37,247 nucleotides of DNA from Chthoniobacter flavus. Lineage in GTDB: Bacteria > Verrucomicrobiota > Verrucomicrobiia > Chthoniobacterales > JACTMZ01. Location: contig CAMBUL010000019.1 of the NCBI GenBank assembly GCA_945871065.1, forward strand, positions 1-37,247, written 5' to 3'. The position numbers and the translations under genes are program-made. Every line of letters begins with the position of its first letter. Position 1 is the stretch's first letter. This document shows positions 21,331 to 30,471 of the stretch, in pieces. The notes beneath the pieces were generated by a model, which did no database searches, had not been told where the DNA came from, and saw nothing but the letters and a program-made list of their open reading frames with translations.

Positions 21331-24300
21331 ATGAACAGAATCTACCAAGGCCGCGTTGGAAAAATAGAAGTCAAGCTTGAGGACGGAAGTTACCAGCCCG
21401 TCCCTTTTTCTGGAGGGGGCCATGGCGGAGACCAGTCCACATGTCCTCTCTGGTTACATCATCAGATCTTCCAAGACGCGGTAAATTATTACCTCCTTGC
21501 TATGGCGTCTCTCGCTAAGCAGCCGGTGCAGGGAGCTGGGAGACTGATGGGCGATCTTCCTGCCAGAGTCGCTGAAGCTTGGGAGGTTTTCCCAAGACAG
21601 GATGCTGCTCGGGCGGGGGCACGTTCGCTTAGAGAATCCGTCGGACCATGGCTGGGGTTGGATCAATCGGCTACGCTTCAGCAGGCTTACGAAGCGATCC
21701 TGAAGGACAACGCTGCGGTCGGTAAGGAGTTGTCTCTGGCCCTTGCCCTTGTTTTGGATCAATGCTCCGGCGAGAGCGGAATTCAGCAAGGAGGGCGCGA
21801 GTACTTGCCCAAGCTGTGCGACTCAAAATCTAAAGCAACCTACAGCTACAGCTCATCCACACTTGAATCAGGGAAGGGCAAGGAGCAGTTGGCCCACGTT
21901 CTACATGGCGAACCTACCGACAAAGATCTCAAGGAGCTTGCCGCAAGCATGGAGCTTTCTTGGACTGTTAAGGTCTCTCCAGGGAAATTTTATGAAGGAC
22001 CCGAAGCCATCGCGCGGCTTTCCGAAGCAATCTCGCATGTGGAAACGATGCTTTCCTTGCCATCCCCTAGGCTCGCAGAGTCCTTGTTAGGTGTCTCTGA
22101 TTGGGTCGGTGAGATCGCTCAGATTAAATCAAACCTCAAGACACGACCGGAAGGCTACAAAATTGCTCGCAACCGAAAGGCTGCCAAGGATCTGACATTT
22201 TCCTCAATCGCCTTCATGGCGTTTCCTTGCCAACTGACAAGACACTGCCTCCGACTTGGCCTAAAAGCCCCAAAGAAAGAGCCTAATAAAGCGTCTACCA
22301 ATGACGTCGATTATTCTACCCTCGGCGATGATCCGGTGAACCTCTCCCGAGGTTCGCGGGGTTACGTTTTTCCTGCCTTTACGTCGCTGCCCTCATGGAA
22401 TCCCAAAAACCCCGGAGAACCTGTCTGGAAAGAATTCGACATAGCGGCCTTCAAGGAAGCCCTCAAAGCCCTTAACCAGTTCCGTCTCAAAACCGAGGAG
22501 CGGGAGGAGCGGAAGAAAAACTTGGAGGGTCTAATCGCGCACCTCATTGGCGCACCCATCGAAGGGTGGAAACCCCTTAAAGAGGATTCGGGCGAGGAGG
22601 GCGAATTACCTGACCCGTTGGATTTGAACTTACTGAAACTCGCGTGGGAACTGGAAGAGGAGATGACCCGCGGTCTCTCCGAGAGCATCGTCGGCGAATC
22701 CAATTTTCTCGCATTCGGCAAGGGGGCCATTCCTGTCAGGGATGGCGGGTGGACGGTGACTCGCGCCTCGCTCAGGGGGCTGCGTGACATCGTCGAGGAT
22801 TGGATGAGGATCATCGCAAAGAATTCTAACGCACCAAGGGAGGAGTTTGTTGAAGCCGTAAAAGCTCACCAACGAAAGGAAGGTAAGGCTGGGGCTATCG
22901 GCTCAGTTGGCCTCTTTTTTACCCTCTGCGAACCCAAGTTCCATCCCCTTTGGATGAATACGAGTTCAACCGACGATGAAGCCGATGCTGGATCCAATCG
23001 CTTTCTTAACCGCTTGGCTGACCTCCACGAGTCAGTCGCCGAGCACACGCGCTGCAAGGAACCGGTCAACCTCACCCCCGCGGAGCCGAGGCACTCTCGC
23101 CGGGCCTTCATGTTCAGCGACCTAAATGGTCGCTCTGCTGCCAAGTACGTCGCAGGGGATATGGTCGAGGTTTCCATAGCGCACCCCATTGCAAAGATCG
23201 TTAAGGAGACGCGATGCCGGCTTCATTTCTCCTCGCCCCGTCTGCGCCGCGATGGGCTGCTAGACAGCGAGGAGGGATGGCTCCAACCCATGACCAAAGC
23301 ACTTGGCCTTAAGTTGGACCAACCCAAGCTCAAAACCTTCGACTCCGCCCTCTCGCTCATGCCCGACTGGGACTCCTCGGGGGGCCTTCGCTACTTGATA
23401 AATTTCGCCGCCTCGATCGATGCAGAGCCCCTGCGATCAGCAATTGGCAAGTTCTCCCTTTGGGGTCGCCAGTTCAACGGAACAAAGGACAAAAACATTC
23501 ACCTCCATTGGCCTGGTACAGCTGACGTGGCAAAGATGAAGGTCACTCCGTGGTGGAATAATCCAGAAATCATCGAAAGTGGTTTCACAGTTCTCTCAAC
23601 TGACCTAGGGCAGCGCACAGCGGGAGCATGGGGCCTTCTGCGGATCACATCATCAAGGCCGGAGACTCCGCGGCCTGTACGATCCATTGGCAACGATGGA
23701 GCCCGCGAATGGTTTGCAGAGGTTCTTAAGACCGGCATGCACCGCCTTCCGGGTGAGGACGCTGTTGTTCGGGGCAAAGACGGCCAAATGGCGCAAGAAC
23801 TCTCCGGCAAGACGGGGCGCATGGCTTCGGAAGGCGAGTGGGCTGAAGCTCTCGAACTCGCCGCCAAACTTTTGGCCGATGACCCAAAGTCGTGGGTTGG
23901 GTCTAGTCGTACGGAAAAATCCTACCCTGAGCAGAATGGTTCCCTCGTTGTGCTGGCAAATAGACGCCTCAGCCGTCTTGCCACTTTTCACCGATGGTCC
24001 TGCTTCGATCCCGACAAAGAGAGTGATCCCAAACGGCGCGAGTCGATGGTCGCAAAGCTCGTAGCAGAACTCACCCAGTGGGAGGATACCGATGTTACCT
24101 CTTGGGCAAGCAAGCTGGGGGAAGGCGATGTCGTTGCCTTCAAAAGATCAGCCGGAGAGGCATTTGCTAAATATCGACGCGACCTGCTCCCCCTGCTCGT
24201 GAAGCTTGCCAACCGGGTGTGCCCGCTGAGGAATGATCTTTGGGCATGGAAAGGACGTGGCGATGCCTCTCCGTACGGGGACCTCGTCCGCGTAGCTAGG

Positions 24301-25515
24301 GATCAAGGGACGACGCCACCCATTCGCGGACAGCGAGGCCTCTCATTGGCAAGGATTGAGCAGCTGGAAGGGCTCAGAAAACTGTTCCTTCGATACAATC
24401 GTGCCCTCGACCGCTCCCCTGGCACCCCAGCTAAGTTCGGGCGTGCCGACGAGGGGAGAGCATCGGGCGAGCCATGCAGTGATCTGCTCAAGAAGATCGA
24501 CAACATCAAGGAGCAGCGTGTTAACCAGACAGCGCACCTCATTCTAGCTCAAGCACTGGGAGTGAAGTTAGCCCCCCATTCTCTTGACGCAGCAACTCGT
24601 CGGAATGGCGATCATCATGGCGAGTACGCCAAAATCACCGGACGGGAACCAGTTGATCTGGTTGTGATCGAGAACCTTGACCGCTACCTCACATCCCAAG
24701 GCCGTTCCCCATCTGAGAATTCTCGGCTGATGAAGTGGTCGCATCGTGCGATCAGGGACAAGGTCAAGATGCTCATCGAGGAACCCTTCGGTATTCCTGT
24801 CCTTGAGGTTCCTGCCTCCTACTCGTCCCGTTTCTGCGCCGTCACCTCTGAGCCCGGCTCGCGGTGCGAGGAGCGCGCATTTCTCGACGACTATCTAAAG
24901 GAGATGCTCAATCGCCGTGCTAATACTGCACCCTCAGCACATCAATCTGACATGAGGCCGTGGCACAACAAGATCCTTGGGCAGTTTGAAAAACTTGCTG
25001 AGATTAATGCCAAAAGGAGTGCAGATGGTAAGCCGCCTAAGACGCTCCTTCTCCCCAAGACCGGCGGGCCGCTCTTTCTGGGTGCCATTGAGTCTCCAGT
25101 CGTCCAGTCCGACATGAATGCAGCCATCAACCTCGGCTTCCGGGCTGTTGCGGCACCCGAAGCACTCCATCTTCTACACAGAGTCCGAAGCCAAACCGAT
25201 GGCCAAGAGATAACCACTGTCGCGAAGAATGCCCGTGAGAGGGCAGCCTATGGCAAAAAGGGAGCCTCCATATCAATGAAGGGAACCCGTTCGTCAAAAC
25301 TCTCAAAATCGGCTAACTTCTTTCACGATGTTAAGGGCATCGCCCGATTTGACAGGGGGGAAATTACGATCGCTGGAACTACCATCGCCGTTGCTTCTAG
25401 CATTGGTATCTGGCACGCCGTCAATGAGTCCATCCTCCCAAGGATCGTCGCGATTAATGAGCAACGCCTGGGGTTGCCTGCATTATTCGACGACAAGGAC
25501 GAGCTTCCCATGTGA
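21331..25515 (+). CDS. cas12b: Cas12b (C2c1) RNA-guided nuclease, long form
   Basis: Effector of a type V-B CRISPR system: with crRNA and tracrRNA it recognises a 5' T-rich PAM and cuts double-stranded DNA with a single RuvC site. All three RuvC parts are present: D758 in STDLGQRTAG, E1114 in VVIENLDRY, and D1261 in QSDMNAAINLGF. The segments SENSRLMKWSHR and PASYSSRFCAVTSEPGSRC are Cas12b hallmarks, as is the opening MNRIYQGRVGKIEV. At 1394 residues it is about 250 longer than the Alicyclobacillus enzyme (1129 aa; D570, E848, D977): the part before RuvC-I is about 190 longer and the RuvC-I to RuvC-II interval about 80 longer. From memory, Opitutaceae C2c1 proteins are of similar length and end with a similar acidic tail. 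First gene of the operon; the stop overlaps cas4-cas1. Confidence 0.95.
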   Translation: MNRIYQGRVGKIEVKLEDGSYQPVPFSGGGHGGDQSTCPLWLHHQIFQDAVNYYLLAMASLAKQPVQGAGRLMGDLPARVAEAWEVFPRQDAARAGARSLRESVGPWLGLDQSATLQQAYEAILKDNAAVGKELSLALALVLDQCSGESGIQQGGREYLPKLCDSKSKATYSYSSSTLESGKGKEQLAHVLHGEPTDKDLKELAASMELSWTVKVSPGKFYEGPEAIARLSEAISHVETMLSLPSPRLAESLLGVSDWVGEIAQIKSNLKTRPEGYKIARNRKAAKDLTFSSIAFMAFPCQLTRHCLRLGLKAPKKEPNKASTNDVDYSTLGDDPVNLSRGSRGYVFPAFTSLPSWNPKNPGEPVWKEFDIAAFKEALKALNQFRLKTEEREERKKNLEGLIAHLIGAPIEGWKPLKEDSGEEGELPDPLDLNLLKLAWELEEEMTRGLSESIVGESNFLAFGKGAIPVRDGGWTVTRASLRGLRDIVEDWMRIIAKNSNAPREEFVEAVKAHQRKEGKAGAIGSVGLFFTLCEPKFHPLWMNTSSTDDEADAGSNRFLNRLADLHESVAEHTRCKEPVNLTPAEPRHSRRAFMFSDLNGRSAAKYVAGDMVEVSIAHPIAKIVKETRCRLHFSSPRLRRDGLLDSEEGWLQPMTKALGLKLDQPKLKTFDSALSLMPDWDSSGGLRYLINFAASIDAEPLRSAIGKFSLWGRQFNGTKDKNIHLHWPGTADVAKMKVTPWWNNPEIIESGFTVLSTDLGQRTAGAWGLLRITSSRPETPRPVRSIGNDGAREWFAEVLKTGMHRLPGEDAVVRGKDGQMAQELSGKTGRMASEGEWAEALELAAKLLADDPKSWVGSSRTEKSYPEQNGSLVVLANRRLSRLATFHRWSCFDPDKESDPKRRESMVAKLVAELTQWEDTDVTSWASKLGEGDVVAFKRSAGEAFAKYRRDLLPLLVKLANRVCPLRNDLWAWKGRGDASPYGDLVRVARDQGTTPPIRGQRGLSLARIEQLEGLRKLFLRYNRALDRSPGTPAKFGRADEGRASGEPCSDLLKKIDNIKEQRVNQTAHLILAQALGVKLAPHSLDAATRRNGDHHGEYAKITGREPVDLVVIENLDRYLTSQGRSPSENSRLMKWSHRAIRDKVKMLIEEPFGIPVLEVPASYSSRFCAVTSEPGSRCEERAFLDDYLKEMLNRRANTAPSAHQSDMRPWHNKILGQFEKLAEINAKRSADGKPPKTLLLPKTGGPLFLGAIESPVVQSDMNAAINLGFRAVAAPEALHLLHRVRSQTDGQEITTVAKNARERAAYGKKGASISMKGTRSSKLSKSANFFHDVKGIARFDRGEITIAGTTIAVASSIGIWHAVNESILPRIVAINEQRLGLPALFDDKDELPM

Positions 25516-27188
25516 TGTCTGCCGAGGAGATGCCGCTAATGCCGGTCCGCCGGCTCCATAACTATGCGTATTGCCCAAGGCTTTTTTACTACCAGTGGGT
25601 CGAGGGAATTTTTGTCGAGAATGCGGACACGCTAGAGGGAACTATCCTGCACTCCCGCGCCGACAAGCCAGGACGGTTGACGGCCGAACTGCAGGGAATG
25701 GATCTTCCCGATGGTGCAGTGCTGAGGAGCCTGCAGCTTGAGAACGTTTCCTTAGGCCTTACCGGAAAGATCGATATCTGTGAGCAAGGGGCGAACGGTA
25801 TTGAAATCATCGACTACAAGAAGGGGAGTGCCCGCCGAGATGGAGACGGATCCAGGGTAGCCAAGCATGCGGATGCTATCCAAGTGGCCGCCTACGCGCT
25901 CCTGCTTGAGGGCGAGGGAATCAAGCTTGCTGGTGCTTCGATTTACTACGCCGCGGAAAGGAGAAGGGTATCCGTGGAGTTGAGCGAGGCACTCTTTGCG
26001 GAGGTGCGATCTCTTCATGAAGCTGCCCTCAAAACTGCACAAGCGGCGATCTGCCCACCCCCGCTCAAGGGAGATCCGAGATGCCTGCACTGCTCAGCCT
26101 ATCCCGTCTGCTTGCCGGAGGAGAGTGCATGGTGGGCTGATGACGGAAAAATCCCCCCACATCCTTCAGTCGCTCCGCGCCCTGAATCGGGCGATGGTGA
26201 GGTTCTCGTTGTTCAGGATTCTAGGGCGCATGTCGGGCTGCGAGGTGAGCAGGTTGTGGTTACTCGAGATGGAGAGGCAATCGCCAAGCTGCCACTAAAT
26301 CAGCTCCGGCATCTCTTCCTTTACGGGGTGCCGCAGGTTAGTTCCCAACTAATCCATGCCCTTTTAGAGCGCGAAATTGGGGTCGGCTATTTTTCGGCAG
26401 CCGGTCGTTTCTTAGGACTGCTCGGAGGTCTTCCCGCAAGTGGAGTAGATGCTCGCAGGGGGCAGTACAGAATGTTTGACCAGCCTGCCATAAGGCTCAT
26501 TTTGGCGAAGGAGTCACTCCGAGCAAAGATCCACAACCAGCGCGTCATGTTGATGCGCAACGGCGATGTACCAGAGGGTGTGCTGCAGACAATGGCGAGC
26601 TACCGCTCAATGGTTGAGGAAGCTGCCGACCTAGATACCGCTCGTGGCATTGAAGGCGCAGCCGCCGCCCTCTACTTCTCGCAGTTTCCAACGATGATTA
26701 AGGAGTGCTCATGGGCAAGGTTTGCATTTGAGGGGAGGAACAGGCGACCCCCAAGGGATCCGGTCAATGCCATGCTTTCCCAAGGATATAGCATCCTCTC
26801 CAAAGAGGCCGCGGGGGTCTGCTGTTCTGTGGGTCTTGATCCATTCCTCGGATTCCTTCATCAACCTCGCTACGGCCGGCCGGCTCTTGCCTTGGACCTC
26901 ATGGAGGAATTTCGTCCGTTGATCGCTGATAGTGTGGCAATCTCGCTTCTCAACCGACGAGAGATTGTCTCATCAGACTTCTTGTCCACGACCACGGGCA
27001 CTTTTTTGAATGCGCACGGGCGAAAGATTTTTTGGGAGGCCTGGTTCCGGCGTATGGACACCGAGGTTTCTCACCCAGAATTTGGGTACAAAATGTCGTA
27101 CCGCAGGATGCTTGAAGTCCAAGCCAGGCAGTTGTGGCGTTTCTGCAAAGGGGAATCGTCGCGATACCACGGCTTTACGACACGCTAG
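25515..27188 (+). CDS. cas4-cas1: Cas4-Cas1 fusion (spacer acquisition)
   Basis: Acquires new spacers: Cas4 trims and selects prespacers with the right PAM, Cas1 integrates them with Cas2. Numbering follows the 558-residue frame from GTG 25512; the ATG at 25515 is equally good and overlaps the cas12b stop (TGATG). Cas4 part (about 10-205): C21 in YCPRLFYY, H47, D88 in GKIDIC, E98 and K103 in IEIIDYKKG, Q124/Y128, and iron-sulfur cysteines C191, C194, C200. A Pro-rich linker (about 212-228) leads to Cas1 (about 230-545) with E381 (GIEGAAAALYF), H450 (FLHQPRYGRPALALDL) and D462/E465. Every expected active-site residue is present. The fusion is typical of type V-B, and also occurs in some type I loci. 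Confidence 0.94.
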   Translation: MSAEEMPLMPVRRLHNYAYCPRLFYYQWVEGIFVENADTLEGTILHSRADKPGRLTAELQGMDLPDGAVLRSLQLENVSLGLTGKIDICEQGANGIEIIDYKKGSARRDGDGSRVAKHADAIQVAAYALLLEGEGIKLAGASIYYAAERRRVSVELSEALFAEVRSLHEAALKTAQAAICPPPLKGDPRCLHCSAYPVCLPEESAWWADDGKIPPHPSVAPRPESGDGEVLVVQDSRAHVGLRGEQVVVTRDGEAIAKLPLNQLRHLFLYGVPQVSSQLIHALLEREIGVGYFSAAGRFLGLLGGLPASGVDARRGQYRMFDQPAIRLILAKESLRAKIHNQRVMLMRNGDVPEGVLQTMASYRSMVEEAADLDTARGIEGAAAALYFSQFPTMIKECSWARFAFEGRNRRPPRDPVNAMLSQGYSILSKEAAGVCCSVGLDPFLGFLHQPRYGRPALALDLMEEFRPLIADSVAISLLNRREIVSSDFLSTTTGTFLNAHGRKIFWEAWFRRMDTEVSHPEFGYKMSYRRMLEVQARQLWRFCKGESSRYHGFTTR

Positions 27189-27190
27189 AA

Positions 27191-27481
27191 ATGGCCCGCC
27201 GTAGATATATCATCACGTACGACATTTCTGATCCCAAGCGGCTACGCGGCGTTGCCAAAACCTTGGAGGGATACGGAGCGCGTCTCCAATTCTCTGTATT
27301 TGAATGCCTGCTCGATCGAATGAGGCTTGCTGCAGCTAAAGCTGCGCTCCAAGACATCATAGACACTTCAGAGGACCAAATCCTGTTTATCTACCTGGGG
27401 CCCGAAGCAACGGATGTGGGACTCTCAATGGAGTCCCTTGGAAGACCCTATCGCCAACGGACCATGGTGACGATTGTCTGA
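27191..27481 (+). CDS. cas2: Cas2
   Basis: Small dimeric partner that joins two Cas1 dimers into the integrase complex. The 96-residue product from ATG 27191 opens with RRRYIITYDISDPKRLRGV, the Cas2 ferredoxin-like strand with the conserved aspartate, followed by LEGYGARLQFSVFECLL and the closing strand ILFIYLG. A longer frame from 27134 would overlap cas1 and add a non-Cas2 N-terminus, so the short start is preferred. It follows the cas4-cas1 stop after 2 bp, completing a tightly coupled three-gene operon. Confidence 0.95.
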   Translation: MARRRYIITYDISDPKRLRGVAKTLEGYGARLQFSVFECLLDRMRLAAAKAALQDIIDTSEDQILFIYLGPEATDVGLSMESLGRPYRQRTMVTIV

Positions 27482-27487
27482 TTTTGT

Positions 27488-27600
27488 GTTGCAACCTTTG
27501 CAACCTGTTGCACTATGAGGGTGGCCACGTTGCCAGCGACCTCTTTTCTTCCGCCCTCGGAAAAGCATTTTCTTTGAAATTGCGACGACTGCGGTTTGCG
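27488..27600 (+). ncRNA. candidate tracrRNA for the type V-B system
   Basis: Type V-B needs a tracrRNA, and the 298 bp between cas2 and the array contain a clear anti-repeat at 27571-27592: TCTTTGAAA, then GCG and CGACTGCG, pairing with the 5' two thirds of the repeat with three mismatches in 22. Upstream is a folded core: GAGGGTGG (27517-27524) can pair over 8 bp with CCGCCCTC (27551-27558), enclosing a small GGC/GCC hairpin. CCGCC could instead pair with GGCGG at the repeat 3' end. A perfect 7-bp hairpin (GTTGCAA/TTGCAAC, 27488-27504) lies at the 5' side. This order, hairpin stem then anti-repeat, is that of known Cas12b tracrRNAs and implies transcription in the same direction as the array. 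Exact ends and promoter are not determined. Confidence 0.7.
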
Positions 27601-27779
27601 AGCACCCCAAGTGGTGCGAGCCCTACACTAGGACGCTCGCGCTGCCATCGGACAGTTGGTTCCCGCCCACTCATAGGTCGTAAGAGATACAGCAACACCA
27701 AGGCAGCATAACGCCCCCTAAGTCGCGCTCGCGGACTAGAGTTTCCTTCTCTATCCAAGGCACTCTTTTGGGGGAGTGG
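27601..27779 (+). promoter_or_regulatory. probable CRISPR leader
   Basis: This 179-bp non-coding stretch lies between the anti-repeat and the first repeat, on the cas side of the array, where a leader with the array promoter and integration signals is expected. It begins with a small hairpin (GCACC/GGTGC, about 27602-27617) that might end the tracrRNA. Its last 19 bp contain CACTC (27761-27765) and GAGTG (27774-27778), an inverted repeat touching repeat 1. The leader role is inferred from position. Confidence 0.5.
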
Positions 27780-29946
27780 GACGCAGTCGCCGCTGTTTCA
27801 AAGAGATTGAGGCGGGGATCGCTTGTTCACGAACTTTATCACGTCACGGGACGCAGTCGCCGCTGTTTCAAAGAGATTGAGGCGGGAGGTAGACCTCGGT
27901 GCCGTCTGGTCGCTTGACCGGACGCAGTCGCCGCTGTTTCAAAGAGATTGAGGCGGTTCGTCATGCCCATGTCCAGCAGCACGCCGGAGAGACGCAGTCG
28001 CCGCTGTTTCAAAGAGATTGAGGCGGGCCGCGGCCAACGCCCGCCTCGAGCACGCCCACATCGACGCAGTCGCCGCTGTTTCAAAGAGATTGAGGCGGAA
28101 CTCCTTTTTATCCTGCTCTATAGAAATCCCCTCGACGCAGTCGCCGCTGTTTCAAAGAGATTGAGGCGGGAGCGCCCCGTGCTCTCCGACTCCTTCTTCA
28201 GGCGGACGCAGTCGCCGCTGTTTCAAAGAGATTGAGGCGGACGTCGGCTGCTCCAAAATTGCTTTGCGGCGAGGCGGACGCAGTCGCCGCTGTTTCAAAG
28301 AGATTGAGGCGGGTCGGGATCTGGGACAAAGCGTTCGTCCCGCTCGGGACGCAGTCGCCGCTGTTTCAAAGAGATTGAGGCGGCTGCCCGCCCAGGTATT
28401 CCTCATAATCCCGCAGCGGACGCAGTCGCCGCTGTTTCAAAGAGATTGAGGCGGCAAGCCTCGGGCGGCGATATAAGCGCGGAGGGATTCGACGCAGTCG
28501 CCGCTGTTTCAAAGAGATTGAGGCGGAGCACCACCACATGAGCAAAGGCCGAGCGGCAGGGACGCAGTCGCCGCTGTTTCAAAGAGATTGAGGCGGGCAG
28601 GGCATTGCCGGTGTTACTTAGGGTGGAGAAGGACGCAGTCGCCGCTGTTTCAAAGAGATTGAGGCGGATACGAAACGCAATCAAACTCCTGATCGCTCAA
28701 AGACGCAGTCGCCGCTGTTTCAAAGAGATTGAGGCGGTGCGGCAGGGTGTCTTCGTCGCTCTCGTCGGCGCGACGCAGTCGCCGCTGTTTCAAAGAGATT
28801 GAGGCGGGTGACCTATCTGAACGAGGCCAAAGGCAATAAGACCGACGCAGTCGCCGCTGTTTCAAAGAGATTGAGGCGGCACTGTCGCCCGCCACCAAAA
28901 GACGCCCCTGCCTCCGACGCAGTCGCCGCTGTTTCAAAGAGATTGAGGCGGGTCTCAGCGCTGCTGTTCAGCAGCCAAATGACCCGACGCAGTCGCCGCT
29001 GTTTCAAAGAGATTGAGGCGGCTTAACACGACCAAAACCGAAACACTCGCCGCCGTGACGCAGTCGCCGCTGTTTCAAAGAGATTGAGGCGGAGTCTTTC
29101 CTCGTTGCCCGCGATCATGCAGATCGCGACGCAGTCGCCGCTGTTTCAAAGAGATTGAGGCGGCTCACCCACTTCGTCATTCACACGACAGGCTCGCTGA
29201 CGCAGTCGCCGCTGTTTCAAAGAGATTGAGGCGGCACTGTCGCCCGCCACCAAAAGACGCCCCTGCCTCCGACGCAGTCGCCGCTGTTTCAAAGAGATTG
29301 AGGCGGTCGCGGCTCATCTTACTCGTTCCTCCCTCCAAATTCGACGCAGTCGCCGCTGTTTCAAAGAGATTGAGGCGGATCGAGTGAGCGCGCTCTTGGA
29401 ACGCGAAAACCGGACGCAGTCGCCGCTGTTTCAAAGAGATTGAGGCGGTTGAGGAAGCGGTCGAGGTCCTCCCCGCCAATGCCGACGCAGTCGCCGCTGT
29501 TTCAAAGAGATTGAGGCGGAAAAGCCTGTTCAGCAATCCGAGCGCGGCCAAGCAGGACGCAGTCGCCGCTGTTTCAAAGAGATTGAGGCGGTGCAAACAC
29601 GTTGCCATTGACGGCGACTTTTTTGGGACGCAGTCGCCGCTGTTTCAAAGAGATTGAGGCGGATCGTCCCCACCTTCCGGTAAAACTCCGGCGTCGTGAC
29701 GCAGTCGCCGCTGTTTCAAAGAGATTGAGGCGGCGCCGCTGGCAGCCAATTTACGGACAGCAGAAATTGACGCAGTCGCCGCTGTTTCAAAGAGATTGAG
29801 GCGGAATCTGATGGCGTGTGAAGAATCAAAGGGGTTTAACGACGCAGTCGCCGCTGTTTCAAAGAGATTGAGGCGGGATGCGCCGTGCCTCGTTGAGTTG
29901 CCTGTTAAATGACGCAGTCGCCGCTGTTTCAAAGAGATTGAGGCGG
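27780..29946 (+). CRISPR. type V-B CRISPR array, 31 repeats, 30 spacers
   Basis: Thirty-one repeats of 36 bp, starting GACGCAGTCGCCGCTG and ending GAGATTGAGGCGG; I found no variant copy. The thirty spacers are 34-36 nt. Short arms in the repeat can pair (CCGC with GCGG, TCAA with TTGA). Orientation is taken as plus because the anti-repeat upstream, transcribed with the operon, would pair with the plus-strand repeat RNA, leaving the GAGGCGG end next to the spacer as in Cas12b crRNAs. The spacer at 28880-28915 is identical to that at 29235-29270. After the last full repeat, 23 nt later, GACGCAG (29970-29976) repeats the first 7 bases of the unit, a possible decayed repeat. Some spacers read as open frames in one strand, but no target can be named without a search. 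Confidence 0.99.
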
Positions 29947-30075
29947 GTGACGTTTGCTCTCTCCGCTGTGACGCAGCGAAAGATCTCAGCGCAGCACGTT
30001 TGACGGCCCCGACGCTGTCATCCTTGGACAACGCAGACTTCTTGCTGAGCTTCTTAGCTGGCTAGGCTTTTAACT

Positions 30076-30471
30076 CTAGATCGGCTTGCCCCCGAGAGTC
30101 GGCACGAAGCCGGACTCTCTCGCCTGCGCCAAGATCTCGGCCCTGGTTGGCGGATTCTTCAAGGCGTAGAAGCGTGCTTCGTAGGTATCCCTGTCCTGTT
30201 GTCTCTCGCGGTCGTCCTCGAAGCTCTCCTTCGGAATCTTGGTAGACGAGATTGAGGCTGGCACCGAGGAGTCCTCAAGAGAGTCATGCGGCTCGCGCTT
30301 GGTCCGCAGTCCTTGGGCTTTCATCTCCTCTAAAGTTCCGGGTCGTTGCCTTCGCAACGCCTCGGACGCTTCCTGGGCCTCGCGCAGGATTACCGCGATT
30401 GATTCCTGCTTGGACATAGATGAACGGGATGTCGCTCTTGGCGAGGGCGCGACTTTCGGTGAGGTTTTCAT
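30076..30471 (-). CDS. hypothetical protein, charged and probably largely helical
   Basis: Not recognised. The 131-residue product is hydrophilic, rich in Glu, Arg and Ser, with no signal peptide or membrane segment. An internal ATG at 30417 (MSKQESIAVILREAQEASEALRRQ) begins a convincing amphipathic helix and may be the actual start; the 18 residues before it are Ser/Pro-rich. The C-terminus NPPTRAEILAQARESGFVP is also helical. It follows the next listed gene after 3 bp on the same strand, so the two form a unit running toward the distal end of the CRISPR array. A link to the CRISPR system is not supported by anything seen. Confidence 0.55.
   Translation of the reverse strand: MKTSPKVAPSPRATSRSSMSKQESIAVILREAQEASEALRRQRPGTLEEMKAQGLRTKREPHDSLEDSSVPASISSTKIPKESFEDDRERQQDRDTYEARFYALKNPPTRAEILAQARESGFVPTLGGKPI

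Follow-up and report, generated by a model that had tools for sequence, protein, structure and literature searches.

A putative tracrRNA with a two-part anti-repeat at a long-form type V-B CRISPR-Cas12b locus

The locus and its relatives

The window, that is, the whole analysed stretch of 37,247 nt from Chthoniobacter flavus, carries a Spartobacteria-like type V-B locus with a long-form Cas12b, in which cas12b, a cas4-cas1 fusion, cas2 and a CRISPR array all lie on the + strand (Table 1). The effector scores 699.9 bits against the NCBIfam Cas12b model NF033949 (cut-off 150) and is by that measure a type V-B effector; its RuvC residues D758, E1114 and D1261 are invariant in alignment A1, and the cas4-cas1 fusion and cas2 adjoin the effector gene as in a type V-B locus. 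The nearest relatives of this Cas12b are found in uncultured Spartobacteria MAGs at 66% identity, and a search of viral contigs for relatives returned none. The cas2 product begins with MARRRYIITYDIS, an N-terminus common to the window and loci L019 and L021, and the fusion passes the NCBIfam model cas4g_cas1g (586.7 bits, cut-off 560), a model of the adaptation type that takes its name from type I-G. The array is built on the repeat GACGCAGTCGCCGCTGTTTCAAAGAGATTGAGGCGG; one spacer, CACTGTCGCCCGCCACCAAAAGACGCCCCTGCCTCC, is present twice (28880-28915 and 29235-29270), and the array matched none of the phage records searched for protospacers and a PAM.

Table 1. Features of the type V-B locus (positions are those of the window)
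Feature	Position	Strand	Basis or remark
cas12b, long form, 1394 aa, frame intact	21331-25515	+	NCBIfam NF033949, Pfam C2c1_RuvC-like
cas4-cas1 fusion	25512-27188	+	Pfam Cas4 + Cas1, NCBIfam cas4g_cas1g
cas2	27191-27481	+	Pfam CRISPR_Cas2; start is the ATG common to relatives
Candidate promoter: TTGCAA 27489-27494, 16 nt, CACTAT 27511-27516	27489-27516	+	weak in the window
8-bp stem of the sequence-only reading; present here, not conserved	27517-27524/27551-27558	+	
Putative tracrRNA, at least its core; both ends predicted	27522-27593	+	covariance model R1, 67.5 bits
Hairpin 1: UGGC 27522-27525 with GCCA 27532-27535	27522-27535	+	
Hairpin 2: stem 27543-27549/27559-27565, 7 pairs, the last U-G	27543-27565	+	covariation
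Short anti-repeat CCGCC, pairs with GGCGG (repeat positions 32-36)	27551-27555	+	25/25 loci pair
Long anti-repeat, pairs with repeat positions 3-30	27566-27593	+	complementarity, shuffles, covariation with repeats
Inverted pair CGAG (27599) / CTCG (27636), 37 nt apart	27599-27639	.	
Leader CTCG, -52 from first repeat	27728-27731	.	position in relatives
CRISPR array, 31 identical 36-nt repeats	27780-29946	+	

Co-variation of the long anti-repeat with the repeat

An earlier, sequence-only reading of this DNA had placed a tracrRNA with a split anti-repeat between cas2 and the array, and had counted 19 of 22 positions at 27571-27592 as complementary to the repeat. A recount reproduces that figure exactly, and the complementarity extends over the 28 nt of the long anti-repeat, which comprise 23 Watson-Crick pairs, 2 G-U pairs and 3 mismatches (predicted duplex energy with the repeat, -35.5 kcal/mol). 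Neither 1000 dinucleotide shuffles of the cas2-array interval nor 1000 shuffled repeats gave a single score as high. An anti-repeat to the locus's own repeat is encoded near the array, and no better one lies elsewhere in the genome (2.53 Mb, 120 contigs), where matches with at most three mismatches occur only here and in the array. An Rfam scan of 27100-30200 returned nothing above the gathering score.

More than 60 Cas12b loci were gathered for comparison, from the same order and from GTDB contigs. Nearly every related locus with a readable array has a same-strand anti-repeat that precedes the array by 146-236 nt, and more than 30 related loci with differing repeats carry the tracrRNA element in the same position and orientation. 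These repeats end in (U)GAGGCGG or close variants and differ widely over their 5' two thirds, a divergence that makes a real test of covariation possible. In a fixed register, with anti-repeat base i set against repeat base 31-i, anti-repeats form 14.21 pairs with their own repeat vs 11.94 with foreign repeats, and the observed sum was reached by 0 of 20,000 reassignments. Covariance of the segment with the repeats of related long-form V-B loci had been proposed as a check on the earlier reading, and anti-repeat and repeat do co-vary. Across a gap-free alignment of 25 distinct loci, 90.6% of the cells of the whole structure are paired, against 39-46% in slid controls; the same loci hold 112 double-changed cells vs 34 in shuffles, controls that leave relatedness among the loci in place. 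The long duplex alone has 84.8% of its cells paired and 65 double-changed cells. Additionally, a covariance model built from 31 loci matches loci outside its building set (among them L027, at 89.5 bits, L077, L050, L084 and L030), and within the genome model R1 finds a single real match, the segment listed in Table 1, the next best scoring 14.6 bits.

These comparisons bear on two other accounts of the segment. Anti-repeats do resemble inverted repeats, and one relative, L067, has a nearly exact inverted repeat copy, as might be expected if the segment were an array remnant or a degenerate repeat copy in inverted orientation, lacking any RNA function; however, neighbourhood, hairpins and spacing are conserved and the compensatory changes track each species' own repeat, which makes such a remnant very unlikely. 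A scoutRNA, as in types V-C and V-D, would likewise be a short RNA encoded close to a type V array, but scoutRNAs are known to pair with the repeat over a very short stretch only, whereas 28 + 5 nt pair here and the effector is Cas12b, and we therefore give that identity almost no credence beside a tracrRNA.

Several relatives depart from the common arrangement. In L046 (12338-12606), from Lentisphaeria, three tandem tracrRNA-like copies lie approximately 95 nt apart, and a partial second copy follows the first in L083 (2939-2983) and L032 (5633-5686). An insertion of approximately 30 nt appears to split the long anti-repeat of L033 (9298-9369) and L068 (14949-15021), which would give a three-part pairing. 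The anti-repeat of L067 (13261-13288) is almost the exact complement of its own repeat, as though a repeat had not long ago been copied into its place.

The short anti-repeat, its hairpin and the strand

The short anti-repeat pairs with the spacer-proximal end of the repeat in all 25 long-form loci compared, which gives the structure a pseudoknot. CCGCC and GGCGG hardly vary within the long-form clade (CCGUC in one locus, still paired), and the pair is for that reason uninformative by itself, support for the pairing coming from change between clades only. Such change is found in Bacillota V-B loci, where GUGCC accompanies a repeat end GGCAC and GUGCU accompanies AGCAC, so that short anti-repeat and repeat end change together across V-B; some Bacillota loci combine GUGCA with AGCAC, at the cost of one mismatch. 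The split anti-repeat proposed from the sequence is borne out by this pairing and its compensatory change between clades, and published V-B guide RNAs contain two repeat/anti-repeat duplexes, a long one and a short one of 5 bp, together with a pseudoknot (PMC11246509).

For the structure around CCGCC, the sequence-only reading had offered an 8-bp stem ahead of the long anti-repeat, with CCGCC either engaged in that alternative pairing or forming the second part of the anti-repeat. The stem does exist in the window (7 Watson-Crick pairs and 1 G-U), but it is not conserved in relatives: it is already broken in the two closest, L025 and L026, and over 31 loci 48.8% of its cells are paired, a level also reached by slid controls (29-50%), and we rejected it as a conserved element. 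The stem of hairpin 2, in contrast, has 99.4% of its cells paired and 47 double-changed cells, a result reached in 0 of 500 shuffles, and the five highest-ranking of 2346 column pairs all belong to this stem. CCGCC is held in the 9-nt loop of this hairpin; of the two alternatives it is the second anti-repeat that stands, in the loop of a strongly co-varying stem, and the unconserved stem that falls. A stem enclosing the short anti-repeat characterises V-B tracrRNAs, the V-B1 layout being the same. Relatives also have a short hairpin at the site of hairpin 1, with varying letters (UGGC/GCCA, AUGCC/GGCAU, GUUCC/GGAAC) and in a register that is not uniform.

Folding the window RNA alone fails to give the conserved structure, which is why the comparison of loci was used. 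For an isolated RNA beginning at 27517 the 8-bp stem is the predicted minimum-energy fold, at -12.8 kcal/mol vs -8.0 kcal/mol for hairpins 1 and 2 together. When the tracrRNA is folded with the repeat, as had also been suggested, the predicted complex loses that stem, while CCGCC and the long anti-repeat pair with the repeat. The energies leave room for a species-specific off-state or switch, in which the tracrRNA would fold with the 8-bp stem and hide CCGCC until the crRNA binds. Against it, the stem is lost in the two closest relatives and sits at control level elsewhere, and its 5' arm overlaps the likely -10 box or start site and may consequently not be transcribed; we consider the switch improbable and retain hairpin 2 as the structure that presents CCGCC. 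The candidate promoter itself draws on the relatives: over 35 loci, TTG was counted 25 times at a distance of 61-64 nt upstream of CCGCC. TTGCAA at 27489-27494 fits that position, though the window's own promoter match is weak, and a scan of the window for a consensus promoter and terminator found neither.

The earlier reading had further held that the tracrRNA fixes the direction of the array. Complementarity alone is symmetric and does not do so, and to that extent it would equally suit a functional RNA on the - strand with the array read the other way; direction follows only once the G-U bias of the stem and the orientation of V-B1 loci are added. Among the substitutions in hairpin 2 are 19 U-G and 0 A-C, a bias expected only for a + strand RNA and hence favouring one. 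The long duplex shows a weaker bias (58 G-U vs 32 A-C). Orientation, repeat end and layout agree with V-B1 loci as well, and a - strand RNA is accordingly most unlikely.

A type V-B guide RNA of simpler build

It is highly probable, in our judgement, that the interval encodes a + strand type V-B tracrRNA, running from approximately 27522 to at least 27593, that pairs with the repeat in two places and carries CCGCC in the loop of hairpin 2. The original proposal, a tracrRNA between cas2 and the array, draws support from position and strand, from covariation with the repeats (25-29 distinct loci) and from the covariance model. The position of the RNA, the strand preference, both pairings and the hairpin are results of the computation. 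The RNA would start near hairpin 1 and reach at least the end of the long anti-repeat, which would pair with positions 3-30 of the transcribed repeat, while CCGCC, from the loop of its 7-bp hairpin, would bind the last five repeat bases, GGCGG, beside the spacer to form the pseudoknot. By analogy with characterised V-B systems, the RNA would be transcribed with ends close to these and processed, and the dual RNA loaded and trimmed to serve as the guide for a presumably active Cas12b.

The leader downstream carries short motifs of its own, compared across the window, L025-L083, L086, L087 and L120-L136. In 30 of 33 long-form loci, against 0.4 expected, the leader has CTCG between -51 and -53, counted from the first repeat; the Bacillota V-B1 arrays examined carry it at about -52, and the CGAG/CTCG pair lies just behind the tracrRNA, at a spacing of 35-37 nt, in 29 loci. 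Both V-B clades have CTCG at about -52 and at -130 to -144, with CGAG approximately 36 nt before the latter. A terminator hairpin for the tracrRNA was considered and rejected for this pair, as the flanking bases do not co-vary in long-form loci; in that clade, protein-binding DNA sites are, judging from the sequences, more likely than an RNA hairpin. The leader motifs are possibly binding sites for adaptation proteins or for a regulator. According to one study, Cas4/1 and Cas2 suffice for spacer acquisition in V-B, and a term search of that paper found no leader motif of this kind (PMC9419969).

The layout of the tracrRNA matches that of the Bacillota V-B1 tracrRNAs (Alicyclobacillus/Bacillus Cas12b): both lie between the cas genes and the array on the same strand, with a first short hairpin, a stem holding the short anti-repeat and a long anti-repeat directly after it, and both have a pseudoknot besides their long and short duplexes (PMC11246509). 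Types V-F and V-G share that duplex arrangement and pseudoknot (PMC11246509), but they have other effector families and the likeness is one of duplex layout. The short pair differs, being CCGCC:GGCGG in long-form loci vs GUGCC:GGCAC or GUGCU:AGCAC in V-B1, and so does the linker from the short anti-repeat to the 3' arm of its stem, which measures 3-4 nt in 37 of 37 long-form loci examined (3 nt in the window) vs 22-38 nt, with a foldable inner hairpin, in 17 of 17 V-B1 loci. The window tracrRNA, having no inner hairpin, falls outside the Bacillota V-B1 subgroup, and a branch of full support (FastTree, 100) sets the long-form effectors apart from the V-B1 clade. Together, the linker and the separate effector branch mark the window tracrRNA as one of the V-B kind in a simpler variant.

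The long-form clade includes Verrucomicrobiota, Lentisphaerota, Elusimicrobiota, Omnitrophota, Myxococcota and others. With Elusimicrobiota loci among its members, the clade may also contain EbCas12b, if Eb stands for Elusimicrobia bacterium. In four V-B systems, small-RNA sequencing located a tracrRNA in the interval separating Cas12b from the array, and the tracrRNA of EbCas12b was seen by this method in E. coli (PMC6342934). We rejected 'V-B2' as a name for the clade: in a published table the V-B2 reference is a Planctomycetes locus (PMC8036902), and the single Planctomycetota Cas12b in our tree groups outside the long-form clade. In the searchable literature we found no guide described for the long-form clade.

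The comparison gives the guide RNA of the long-form Cas12b clade a secondary structure tested by covariation; it names a tracrRNA segment for functional testing, replaces a stem that was plausible but wrong, and shows that V-B systems retain the short pseudoknot duplex despite its changing letters. We think it likely that the clade uses a minimal pseudoknot scaffold, in which a 7-bp hairpin lies directly against the long duplex, has the short anti-repeat as its apical loop and contains no inner hairpin, and that its enzymes would accordingly have an RNA recognition of their own, with guides not interchangeable with those of V-B1. Guides can be swapped among eight Cas12b orthologs (Teng et al., PMC6476878); given the different scaffold, a swap of this kind is predicted to fail with the long-form enzymes.
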